From Candidatus Staskawiczbacteria bacterium (lineage in GTDB: Bacteria; Patescibacteriota; Minisyncoccia; Minisyncoccales; Staskawiczbacteraceae), in NCBI GenBank assembly GCA_903854535.1, contig CAINWR010000027.1, positions 1 through 41,074 on the forward strand: a stretch of 41,074 bases of DNA, read 5' to 3'. Position numbers and translations under genes: made by a program. The notes below the pieces were generated by a model. The model saw only the letters and a list, made by a program, of their open reading frames with translations. It made no database searches and was not told where the DNA came from. This document shows positions 13,662 through 39,081 of this stretch, piece by piece; position 1 is the stretch's first letter; each line of letters opens with the position of its first letter.

Positions 13662-13719
13662 CTATATCTGTGGATCATTGACAACAATTTCTTGTTCTTG
13701 TGAATTTCCGGAGGATAAA

Positions 13720-14871
13720 GTGATTGATCAAGAACTTCAAGCAAAACTTGATGCCCTAAAAGAAATTAAGGGGCAGTACATGGTCGGATCCCAGACTGCT
13801 TACTGGTTTCTAAAGGCGCGGCGACACTATGACAACTTGTGCAATCGTCTCCACAAGTTGGGGTGCAACATCAGTGTAAACGAAGCGTCTTTGGTAACCG
13901 GCAACATCTTGACCGCATCGAAGACTGCAATAGCGATGACCTTGGTTGTAAACAGCACCATGGATCATCCGTATGTTGGTCTCGACACCTGTGTCCATGC
14001 ATTTGTACTCCCGACGCTACTTCAAGAAAGGAAAACAAAAATAAATAACTTGCATCAAGTCGGCGAAGTGGTCTGGACAGTCGATCCGTTGCCGATTTTC
14101 AAGCTCGTGCTAGACGAGTCTCGGGCGACAGACATATCGCCAGAATTCTCGGTTGGCGCGGTGCTTAAGCTCTTACTTTCGGATGTCGCACGACATGTAA
14201 AGTTCTTGGTCTGTTGCAGGACCGGAGAAAGAGTTTCTCTTTCAAACGTGGCGGAGAGAACGGAATTCCGCAATGCCCGCCGGGATACTCTTGAAGATCT
14301 GATTTTGCAAAGATTGGAATACCTTAATACGTTAGATGATGAAGTGGCCGAGGAAATTGACGAAGATTATCTTCGCCTCGTCCGGCAACTTTCAGAATCT
14401 TACGATCAAAAAGATCTTTCACAGTGCCATCTGATAATGCAGGTGATAACGGTGAGGGAAATCACTCAATCGCTCGAAATGGAAATGGTCACGGTGGTTC
14501 GCGAAAGTTGCTTGCAAGAAGAATGCCTGCTTCTGCTCGGGGTTGAGCAAATCTTTGCCAGAGCCGAAGCAGAGTATACTCTCGGCACGATCGATGTGGA
14601 GCGGCGTATAGCAGTGAATCTCGTCTATGAGCACATGCAATCAGTCGGAGAGATCACACGATCAGAGCAATCTGAGCAGTTGATCGACCTTGCGATTGCG
14701 GAGTTTCTCCGTAAAAGAGATGTTAGTAAAAGACGTCTTGCGCAGTTGGTTGATCTTGATGTTCCAGACCAGATCATTCGAGACGAGGAATATCTACTTA
14801 AAAAGCGACGATACTTTTATTTGTCGCTCAAGAAGAATCGGTCATGGCTGATTGCTTTCTTTGCCAGATGA
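13720..14871 (+). CDS. Hypothetical protein, SD-led accessory gene
   Basis: A 383-aa protein I do not recognise. It looks mostly alpha-helical, rich in charged residues, with no signal peptide or clear membrane helix and Cys-containing stretches ('FLVCCRTGE', 'ESCLQEECLLLLGVEQ'). The ORF track uses a TTG at 13678. A GGAGG five nt before the in-frame GTG at 13720 decides the start. GC and codon use are clearly higher and more balanced than in neighbours (many CTC, CGC, GTC codons), and the stop is TGA. With its own promoter and a strong terminator it forms a closed single-gene unit, probably acquired. Confidence 0.7.
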   Translation: MIDQELQAKLDALKEIKGQYMVGSQTAYWFLKARRHYDNLCNRLHKLGCNISVNEASLVTGNILTASKTAIAMTLVVNSTMDHPYVGLDTCVHAFVLPTLLQERKTKINNLHQVGEVVWTVDPLPIFKLVLDESRATDISPEFSVGAVLKLLLSDVARHVKFLVCCRTGERVSLSNVAERTEFRNARRDTLEDLILQRLEYLNTLDDEVAEEIDEDYLRLVRQLSESYDQKDLSQCHLIMQVITVREITQSLEMEMVTVVRESCLQEECLLLLGVEQIFARAEAEYTLGTIDVERRIAVNLVYEHMQSVGEITRSEQSEQLIDLAIAEFLRKRDVSKRRLAQLVDLDVPDQIIRDEEYLLKKRRYFYLSLKKNRSWLIAFFAR

Positions 14872-36268: not shown

Positions 36269-36338
36269 AGTTTTGCCTTTGCAAAAGAGTGAATGTGCTA
36301 GCACCTATTTAATCATACCAAAAAATAGGAAAAATAAA

Positions 36339-37865
36339 ATGACTTCATCGAAAATATTATTTTTAATTGGCATTTCTTTTATTGGAGGAGTGTTTTTAAG
36401 TTCAATTTTTGCAATACCTCAAATAATTATTTGGGCTTTTTTATTGATAGGAATTTTGTTAATTATTTTTTCTTTTTATAAAAAGATATTTATAATTTTG
36501 GGATTTTGTTTATTAATATTTTGCTTGGGTATTTTAAGATATCAAATATCTATATTTAATATAGAAAATAATGATTTAATCCAGTTAAATGATAAGCAAG
36601 ATGAAATAACTTTAAATGGGACAGTAGTTAAAGAACCAGATAATAGAGATAAAGTTCAGAGATTAAAAGTAAAAGTTGATAATTTTGGTGGCTTAGTTTT
36701 AATAACAAAAAATAGATATCCAGAATATAATTATTTAGATAAAATTGAAATTACAGGTAAGCTTAAAACACCAGCTGATTTTGGAGATTTTAATTATAAA
36801 AATTATTTATTAAAAGATGGAGTTTATTCTGTGATGGATTTTCCCAAGACAGAACTAATTTCTAGATTCGCTTCAAGTAGCTTTGGCCAATTAGGGTTTG
36901 AAAAAGTTTTATTTGTAAAACAAAAATTACGAGAATCTATAAGGCAAATATATTTACCTCCAGAAAGTTTGGTTATAGAAGGCACAATTTTGGGTGATTC
37001 TAGTGCTTTGACTCAAGAACTAAAAGATCAATTAAATATCACAGGACTTCGTCATATTATAGCAGTGTCTGGAACTCATATAATTATTTTATCTTCTATA
37101 TTGATGTATTTGTTTTTATTTTTGGGGTTTTGGAGGGGGCAAGCTTTTTATGGATCTATTGCATTTATTTGGCTTTATATATTACTTACTGGGCTTCCAG
37201 CTTCAGGGATTAGAGCTGGAATTATGGCAACTTTGTTTTTATTTGCTCAGAAAATAGGCAGAAATGCTGGAGGAGAAAGAATAATAGTAATGTCCTGTGC
37301 TTTAATGCTTTTAATAAATCCTTTGCTTTTATTTTATGATATTGGTTTTCAATTATCATTTTTAGCTGTTTTGGGTTTAATTTATTTACAAAAACCAATT
37401 AATGAATTTTTAAAATTTATAGTAAGTTTTATAAAAAATAAAATAAATAAAGCAAAAAAACCTCAAAAAGAAAATGAGAAATTAGATAGTATTTTTAATA
37501 TGGTTTCTGCCACATTATCAGCTCAGATTTTTACAATTCCAATTATGCTGTATAATTTTGGCAATATTTCCTTTATAGCCCCTATAACAAATATTTTGGT
37601 TTTACCTATAGTAGAATATTTAATGATTTTTGGATTTTTATCTTCAATAATTGGCATATTTTCAGAATTTTTGGGATTTATAATTTCAATTCCTAGTTAT
37701 TTTTTAATTATTTATTTTTTAAAAATTTTAGAAATATTTTCGCAAGCTTGGGCAATGAAAGTTTTTGAAAATGTGCATTGGATTTGGCTTATAATTTTAT
37801 ATTTGATTATTATAATTTTTGTAGCTTGGGTAAAAAAGAAAGAAAGAGAAAATAGATTTTATTAA
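36339..37865 (+). CDS. comEC: ComEC/Rec2-type DNA-uptake channel protein, short form
   Basis: A 508-aa membrane protein of the competence ComEC family, which passes single-stranded DNA into the cell. It has N-terminal helices, an OB-like extracytoplasmic domain (about 80-190), and the competence domain with 'HIIAVSGTH' (about 235) and 'GLPASGIRAGIMATLFLFAQ', followed by several helices. There is no C-terminal metallo-beta-lactamase domain after 'FVAWVKKKERENRFY', so this is a short form. The ORF track begins at 36273, but the ATG at 36339 after 'aaaataaa' starts the first helix. Other competence genes are not in the window. Confidence 0.88.
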   Translation: MTSSKILFLIGISFIGGVFLSSIFAIPQIIIWAFLLIGILLIIFSFYKKIFIILGFCLLIFCLGILRYQISIFNIENNDLIQLNDKQDEITLNGTVVKEPDNRDKVQRLKVKVDNFGGLVLITKNRYPEYNYLDKIEITGKLKTPADFGDFNYKNYLLKDGVYSVMDFPKTELISRFASSSFGQLGFEKVLFVKQKLRESIRQIYLPPESLVIEGTILGDSSALTQELKDQLNITGLRHIIAVSGTHIIILSSILMYLFLFLGFWRGQAFYGSIAFIWLYILLTGLPASGIRAGIMATLFLFAQKIGRNAGGERIIVMSCALMLLINPLLLFYDIGFQLSFLAVLGLIYLQKPINEFLKFIVSFIKNKINKAKKPQKENEKLDSIFNMVSATLSAQIFTIPIMLYNFGNISFIAPITNILVLPIVEYLMIFGFLSSIIGIFSEFLGFIISIPSYFLIIYFLKILEIFSQAWAMKVFENVHWIWLIILYLIIIIFVAWVKKKERENRFY

Positions 37866-37866
37866 A

Positions 37867-37904
37867 TAAAAAAGCCCCGACTCGCACATGGCGTGCCGGT
37901 GGCT
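37867..37904 (-). terminator. Terminator of the carbonic-anhydrase-like operon
   Basis: On the minus strand AAGCC-a-CCG-GCAC...GTGC...CGG-GGCT folds into an interrupted stem followed by TTTTTT. Confidence 0.65.
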
Positions 37905-37941
37905 TGGTTTGCATCTTGGTGACAGATTGTCTCCGCAACGC

Positions 37942-38538
37942 CTAGTCGATTTTGACCACTTCTGGGTTAGGGTTGACTAGACCCTTCTCCTTGTCCGTGA
38001 AGCTGAAATACAACATCACGAGTTCCAGCTCCGGAGTTCTCTTGGCAAAGAACTCTTTGATCGCAGGAAAATCCTTTTTCCCTTGGTGCGGGTCTGTGAA
38101 TCCGTAGTGCTTGATGCAAGCACAATCCTCGTGCTCTGCAACAATAACCATTGTCATTGATGGGGCGGGGTGCTCCAAGATAATGTCTAGGTCGGTTTTT
38201 TCCGCTAGACACTTGCAGTCCATCAGAACTGGGTTTGCCAAGGGATCTGGCCCACCCGGAACGACGATCGGGAAGCACTCTTCCTCCATGAGCCCGTAGC
38301 GTTCCCTGATTTTCTTATACATACACAGGCGCGGGTCGGAGCAGCACACAACGATCGCCCTGACCTTTGGGGATTCGGTTTGTTGTTGCTCTTGAGAGCT
38401 GACTTTCTGGCTCGAGTTTGTCCCAATTGCAATCAGCCAAAATGTTGCTGCGACAATTGCAAGCGCTTGAACCGCATGTAAGATACTTCCCCAGGCTGTT
38501 GGCTCCGGGCCAATTACTAACCTTACCAATTTCTTCAT
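37942..38538 (-). CDS. Membrane-anchored beta-carbonic-anhydrase-like protein
   Basis: A 198-aa protein with an N-terminal membrane helix (about 19-39, 'ILHAVQALAIVAATFWLIAIG'), a Gln/Ser linker and a domain with beta-carbonic-anhydrase landmarks. These are 'CCSDPR' (Cys66, Asp68, Arg70 as C-x-D-x-R), 'VPGG' (93-96) and 'HEDC' (His136, Cys139 as H-x-x-C). All three zinc ligands are thus in place. The orientation predicts an extracytoplasmic domain. The start at 38538 is set by AAGGAG seven nt upstream; the ORF-track start is 150 nt too early. The overall domain is shorter than typical enzymes, so catalysis is uncertain. Confidence 0.65.
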   Translation of the reverse strand: MKKLVRLVIGPEPTAWGSILHAVQALAIVAATFWLIAIGTNSSQKVSSQEQQQTESPKVRAIVVCCSDPRLCMYKKIRERYGLMEEECFPIVVPGGPDPLANPVLMDCKCLAEKTDLDIILEHPAPSMTMVIVAEHEDCACIKHYGFTDPHQGKKDFPAIKEFFAKRTPELELVMLYFSFTDKEKGLVNPNPEVVKID

Positions 38539-38575
38539 CAATCTTCTCCTTCTTGTGAAATTGACCAAACAATGC

Positions 38576-39028
38576 CTAAGTCCACACAATGCCGTTAGCA
38601 AAAAGTTGCTCGAAGGTTTTGTCTTCCCGGAGAAAGTGCGCCGACACTGGTCTGCCGGGAAACATTTCTTCAATGTTCTTTGCAGCAATTACCGTGTCGT
38701 CCATTTTCTCTTGCAAACTGAAATCACATCCCTTGAATCTGGGGAACCTTCCGAGCATTTTGTAAATTCCGCAATCATGTCCAATTATTCGAAAGTTAGG
38801 CTGTGCGAAATTGTCTAATGCAAAGAGAGTGTCTTCCATGATGGCAGCAACTTTCATTGAGAAATACAATGGCCTCGCCAAGGCCGGCACGGTGCCAAAT
38901 AGTCCGATAGGAGCCACAAGTTTGCCTTCTGGCACCAGCAAACGCTTGGCGTATTTCCAAGTGTTAGCTTTTTCGGCGCGCGGATCTGCACACAAAAAAA
39001 AGATGCCGTCTGCTTGTTCGCTTTTCAT
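38576..39028 (-). CDS. Beta-carbonic-anhydrase-like protein with altered zinc site
   Basis: A 150-aa protein, first gene of the operon. It has 'CADPR' (Cys13, Asp15, Arg17) as in the C-x-D-x-R motif, and 'GHDCG' (His84, Cys86) where beta-carbonic anhydrases have H-x-x-C. The spacing is one residue short. No membrane helix, so probably cytoplasmic. It may bind zinc differently or have a non-enzymatic role. AAGGAG precedes the ATG by 6 nt. The second, membrane-anchored paralogue starts 37 nt after its stop. GC is much higher than in comEC and greA. Confidence 0.6.
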   Translation of the reverse strand: MKSEQADGIFFLCADPRAEKANTWKYAKRLLVPEGKLVAPIGLFGTVPALARPLYFSMKVAAIMEDTLFALDNFAQPNFRIIGHDCGIYKMLGRFPRFKGCDFSLQEKMDDTVIAAKNIEEMFPGRPVSAHFLREDKTFEQLFANGIVWT

Positions 39029-39081
39029 TGGTAACTCCTTGTCAAAGAACGATTTTTGTTAGTCAAACGACTTGACTGTAA

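Follow-up and report, generated by a model that had tools for sequence, protein, structure and literature searches.

The comEC locus of Candidatus Staskawiczbacteria is variable and lineage-specific, and the two carbonic-anhydrase-like genes that occupy it in the window (the whole stretch of DNA analysed, 41,074 nucleotides, from a genome assembly of 844 kb in 77 contigs) represent one state of this locus and no fixed system. The first-pass annotation had described their products, the soluble P0002 and the membrane-anchored P0001, as an unusual two-protein system with one part facing outward. What is unusual is the variable, GC-rich locus, with its repeated anchoring of proteins and its H-x-C clade, rather than the pair itself.

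The gene pair and its signals

P0002 is followed by P0001 after 37 bases (Table 1), and the operon layout claimed at first pass is seen in the sequence, with good ribosome sites before both ATGs and a terminator behind the second gene. The consensus -35 claimed with it is present, but as a promoter it is only half supported: its partner -10 (TATCTG, spacing 16) is weak, and the promoter scan listed none at this TTGACA. A second TTGACA at 39040-39045 was ruled out as the -35 of P0002, as it overlaps the ribosome site. A longer P0001 frame, from a TTG and extending to 38688, would overlap P0002, and the ATG was taken instead. Both genes have homologues at the equivalent position in other species, and their amino acids are under constraint (dN 0.36, dS saturated), which indicates that they are more than chance open reading frames.

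Table 1. Features of the gene pair and its surroundings, in window coordinates
Feature	Position	Strand	Basis
P0002, soluble beta-carbonic-anhydrase-like protein, 150 aa, first gene of the pair	38576..39028	-	ORF and translation
P0001, membrane-anchored beta-carbonic-anhydrase-like protein, 198 aa, second gene of the pair	37942..38538	-	ORF, ATG at 38538
comEC, convergent neighbour marking the variable gap, outside the operon	36273..37865	+	ORF
AAGGAG ribosome site of P0002, 6 nt 5' of the ATG	39035..39040	-	sequence
AAGGAG ribosome site of P0001, 7 nt 5' of the ATG	38546..38551	-	sequence
TTGACA, possible -35, 76 nt upstream of P0002	39104..39109	-	sequence
Stem-loop followed by a U run, terminator closing the P0002-P0001 operon	37872..37905	-	-30.1 kcal/mol, z -2.6
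CADPR of P0002 (C13-A-D15-P-R17), first zinc ligand (C13, putative) and Asp-Arg dyad	38978..38992	-	translation, motif table
H84-D-C86 of P0002, shortened by one residue relative to the usual H-x-x-C	38771..38779	-	motif table, clade alignment
CSDPR of P0001 (C66-S-D68-P-R70)	38329..38343	-	translation, motif table
H136-E-D-C139 of P0001	38122..38133	-	translation, motif table
Membrane helix predicted in P0001, at about residues 20-38	38425..38481	-	hydropathy 2.03; AF2 helix 15-44

Membership of the beta-carbonic anhydrase superfamily

Single-sequence searches with P0001 and P0002 (Pfam, NCBIfam, PDB, PADLOC and PHROGs) returned nothing usable, matches of P0001 to Sdh_cyt and pilin being due to its membrane helix, and neither protein reaches the cut-off of Pro_CA_2 (PF20393, 30 bits) or of Pro_CA (PF00484, 25.7 bits). 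Relatives at the same locus score up to 29.7 bits against Pro_CA_2 (cut-off 30; E 8e-7) and match Pro_CA weakly (E 1.4e-4), and some other genes of the comEC gap exceed the Pro_CA_2 cut-off. Profile-profile comparison with hhalign linked the anchored clade of P0001 (96.3%, E 1.5e-9) and the HDC clade of P0002 (98.1%, E 1.1e-13) to class-level proteins of the Pro_CA_2 type; the four members of this comparison set that were tested each lie above the Pro_CA_2 cut-off (35-66 bits against 30). When the family profile was compared with the PDB, beta-carbonic anhydrases (beta-CAs) ranked top, with a best value of 7e-4.

Predicted structures point the same way. The AlphaFold (AF2) model of P0001 (pLDDT 84) has a best Foldseek match at E 1.1e-4 (probability 1.0), and all of its top 50 matches are beta-CAs. 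For P0002 (pLDDT 77.5) the best Foldseek matches are again beta-CAs, although the signal is weaker and suggestive (E no lower than 0.012; TMq 0.53 to 1g5c). Comparison with solved beta-CAs gave low TM-scores (0.3-0.5); in the case of P0001 the anchor helix accounts for part of this. Both proteins have the Cys-His-Cys ligands and the Asp-Arg dyad in the right order, and C-x-D-x-R and H-x-x-C recur in most of 54 aligned sequences. The carbonic-anhydrase-like fold claimed at first pass is borne out by the profile-profile and AlphaFold/Foldseek results, and we assign both proteins to the beta-CA superfamily, in fold and zinc site, with high confidence. The similarity to solved beta-CAs signifies superfamily membership and no close kinship. 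The two proteins had also been called paralogues, which holds in the sense of a common superfamily; the tree rejects a recent tandem duplication and, with it, recent paralogy between them.

Among known systems, the putative carbonic anhydrases of PF20393 (Pro_CA_2), common in this bacterial group, resemble the window proteins in domain length, in C-x-D-x-R and H-x-x-C and through the profile-profile link. The window proteins differ from them in giving no single-sequence match, in a DPR/GGP consensus, in the N-terminal anchor of P0001 and in the H-x-C of P0002. Classical beta-CAs of PF00484 (6gwu, 3e28 and 1g5c) are the top structural matches and share the same five residues, whereas the window proteins are very divergent (10-17% identity), with one of them anchored and P0002 carrying H-x-C. 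Hydrolases of COS and CS2 belong to the same superfamily, and the family profile matches one of each weakly (3vqj and 3ten, respectively); a substrate shared with the window proteins is only putative. It is nonetheless conceivable that fold and zinc site are as proposed and that COS, CS2 or another small electrophile is hydrolysed. Rapid divergence and swapped partners (see below) would be easier to reconcile with a shifting substrate than with a housekeeping function in CO2 hydration. True carbonic anhydrases match equally well or better, however, and sulfur-metabolism genes are absent from the neighbourhood, and we regard a different substrate as improbable.

The putative H-x-C zinc motif of P0002

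The first-pass reading of the motifs agrees with ours: both proteins carry C-x-D-x-R (CSDPR in P0001 and CADPR in P0002), with H-x-x-C in the anchored protein (HEDC) and H-x-C in the soluble one (HDC). All five active-site residues (C, D, R, H and C) are kept in each; P0001 has the normal spacing, and P0002 departs from it. Conservation of H-x-C among homologues had been named as a check, and the same one-residue deletion was found in six sequences (P0002, G005, G011, G021, G023 and G058), which form one clade together with an H-x-x-C protein of G019 (UFBoot 98). In the clade alignment, which holds five of the six HDC sequences, C, D, R, H, D, C and G are invariant. Because the same deletion recurs across the clade and the key residues do not vary, H-x-C reads as a conserved variant, and sequencing error and simple decay are excluded as its source. 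The shortened motif may fail to hold zinc in the manner of H-x-x-C.

Altered spacing has a precedent in CsoSCA, the carboxysomal beta-CA subclass, in which zinc is bound by Cys173, His242 and Cys253 (PMC12646314). The His-to-Cys spacing is longer in CsoSCA and shorter in P0002, and the window proteins have neither a carboxysome nor the three-domain layout. Since accepted members of the superfamily vary in this way, the motif marks P0002 as a variant that, by its sequence, still belongs to it. The H-x-C clade would be a natural test of how far the beta-CA zinc site tolerates rearrangement.

A variable gap beside comEC

Homologues of comEC were sought in 36 Candidatus Staskawiczbacteria genomes of the family and matched in 34; leaving out the two genomes without a match and two more cut by contig ends, 32 gaps could be assessed. 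Carbonic-anhydrase-like genes occupy the gap in 20 of these, with one to three per genome, and 12 have none. The genes are antisense to comEC in every case, the gap is usually bounded on its other side by a glycosyltransferase-like gene, and the same-place loci in named genomes belong to Candidatus Staskawiczbacteria. Two branches of the superfamily are found here: a DPR radiation, to which P0001 and P0002 both belong, and a CMDGR branch (Pro_CA_2) in G028, G030, G032 and G034.

Membrane anchoring is concentrated in the gap. Anchored copies, from both branches, make up nine of 28 gap proteins against none of 28 relatives elsewhere (p about 0.002, computed with 27, for species that are not independent and with shared ancestry ignored). 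They occur in 6/7 multi-gene gaps and in 1/12 complete single-gene gaps (p about 0.002, shared ancestry again ignored; G002, whose contig breaks off nearby, left out). For P0001 the predicted topology is N-in/C-out, with the catalytic domain probably outside; the one basis for this orientation is the K/R residues before the helix (MKKLVR), read by the positive-inside rule. An anchored and a soluble gene lie side by side in five genomes (G000, G003, G028, G032 and G034), so the pairing on which the two-protein idea hinged does recur. An obligate pair is contradicted by the swapping of partners between species: the anchored gene has different partners in G001 and G003, and in four genomes (G021, G005, G011 and G023) the HDC gene stands alone or beside another soluble gene, with no anchored gene.

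Active-site residues are intact in 21 of the 28 gap proteins and lost or changed in the other seven, with losses in G001, G021, G031, G030, G028 and G002, so that part of the locus may be non-enzymatic. These losses, repeated anchoring and a turnover that is fast relative to the flanks (between G000 and G002 the anchored gene is 33% identical and comEC 77%) would all fit proteins in which the fold has been reused for binding at the surface, in contact with a host or competitor, with the zinc structural or lost. Such a role is nevertheless unlikely, given that both window proteins and three-quarters of the gap proteins keep all five residues and that adhesin or secretion genes are not among the neighbours. 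Candidate non-catalytic members are L070 of G021 (CTEIA...ENDC), L058 of G031 (CSQLS, with an insertion before CGYY) and L056 of G001 (RYDPR...HWNC). The gap protein L079 of G024 has a lipoprotein-like N-terminus (IVGAC) and a GC3 of 0.82, compared with 0.50 for comEC.

Base composition and gene turnover

The pair had been placed in a higher-GC island, and its GC of 0.46-0.48 indeed stands above a background of about 0.31. GC3 is 0.60 in P0001 and 0.50 in P0002, against mostly 0.15-0.3 in other genes; in a sample of 183 ORFs drawn from this genome and the window, only nine exceed 0.40, and several of the nine seem to be artefacts (e.g., in L093). In 19/19 genomes the gap genes have on average a higher GC3 than comEC; taken singly, 25 of 26 genes do, and the difference holds for the CMDGR gap genes. 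Relatives at other loci, unlike the gap genes, have a GC3 close to that of their neighbours. Between species, fourfold sites approach saturation in both carbonic-anhydrase-like genes and in comEC, which would have let a high GC3 fade; one old import with incomplete amelioration is therefore unlikely as the sole cause, and the GC3 of the gap is either held up or re-imported. The dS of the carbonic-anhydrase-like genes is higher than that of comEC. We did not count this excess in favour of transfer, since the apparent dS of comEC is depressed by codon bias.

Composition raises the possibility that GC-rich accessory genes are repeatedly imported into a permissive gap, with carbonic-anhydrase-like genes as mere frequent cargo that have no joint function. 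The consistently higher GC3 of the gap genes, the presence of two superfamily branches, further GC-rich ORFans in the genome and the gap of G013 (L128:1444-2178), where an unrelated gene with a GC3 of 0.64 takes the place of a carbonic-anhydrase-like one, are in keeping with this, and judging by the last case the gap may draw in GC-rich genes of any kind. Yet the superfamily is nearly always the same, as is the antisense orientation, the anchored clade follows genus in the tree (UFBoot 97), and the gap contains no mobility genes that we could see. No homologues were found in viral contigs, phages or plasmids, which also makes a phage or plasmid origin of the pair unlikely. Recurrent import as the whole explanation accordingly has a low probability in our judgement.

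An initial scan of the genome contigs with P0002 as the query gave no relatives. A second GC-rich island in the window (13678-14871, + strand) encodes a 397-aa ORFan with a GC3 of 0.49. It matches no Pfam family, and among the other genomes of the family G026 alone has a relative, which is weak and partial. Two further GC-rich genes of the same genome encode a radical SAM protein (L099:8760-9647, GC3 0.53) and a lipoprotein-like protein that matches HEAT repeats weakly (L097:1433-2170, GC3 0.51).

Proposed function and significance

The reading we favour is that P0002 and P0001 are divergent beta-CA superfamily members (Pro_CA/Pro_CA_2), each with a putative Cys-His-Cys zinc site and Asp-Arg dyad. 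P0002 would act in the cytoplasm, and P0001, tethered by its N-terminal helix, probably outside. The likeliest chemistry would be reversible CO2 hydration by a cytoplasmic and an external enzyme, in cells that lack a canonical Pro_CA enzyme. None of the 36 family genomes has a Pro_CA gene above the 25.7-bit cut-off, and Pro_CA_2 is present in 21 of them. The comEC locus gains, loses, swaps and repeatedly anchors such genes, and P0002 and P0001 are its present occupants. The data show the superfamily membership, the intact residues, the conservation of HDC and the behaviour of the locus; we infer zinc binding, the outside location, the reaction and joint action of the pair, and the proposal as a whole, with CO2 hydration inside and outside the cell, has in our view an even chance of being right. 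A stronger version, in which locus-bound, fast-diversifying surface and cytoplasmic zinc enzymes of the beta-CA type, a new zinc-site variant with H-x-C among them, replace the canonical carbonic anhydrase of these reduced genomes under diversifying pressure at the surface, is rather speculative.

At the window locus, comEC is convergent and no other gene qualifies as a functional neighbour. In many genomes elsewhere in the class, carbonic-anhydrase-like genes of the same superfamily and of ordinary GC3 adjoin apparent atpD/atpC genes (L109, L111, L112, L113, L115, L116, L118, L120, L121 and L040), and three others (L117, L119 and L122) adjoin apparent GAPDH/PGK genes; these neighbours were named by reading the sequences, with no family search. 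Both neighbourhoods would be consistent with an involvement in energy, pH or CO2 balance. A search of the literature on Pro_CA_2 and on carbonic anhydrase in Patescibacteria/CPR, at title and abstract level, found no study of these genes.

Patescibacteria have tiny genomes with few accessory genes. In these small genomes, a single gap goes on acquiring and remodelling carbonic-anhydrase-like genes and repeatedly anchors their products, while canonical Pro_CA is absent. If the proteins are catalytic, they would show how such cells manage CO2, bicarbonate and pH at their surface, and the comEC gap is a good place to seek a novel type of zinc enzyme at the cell surface.
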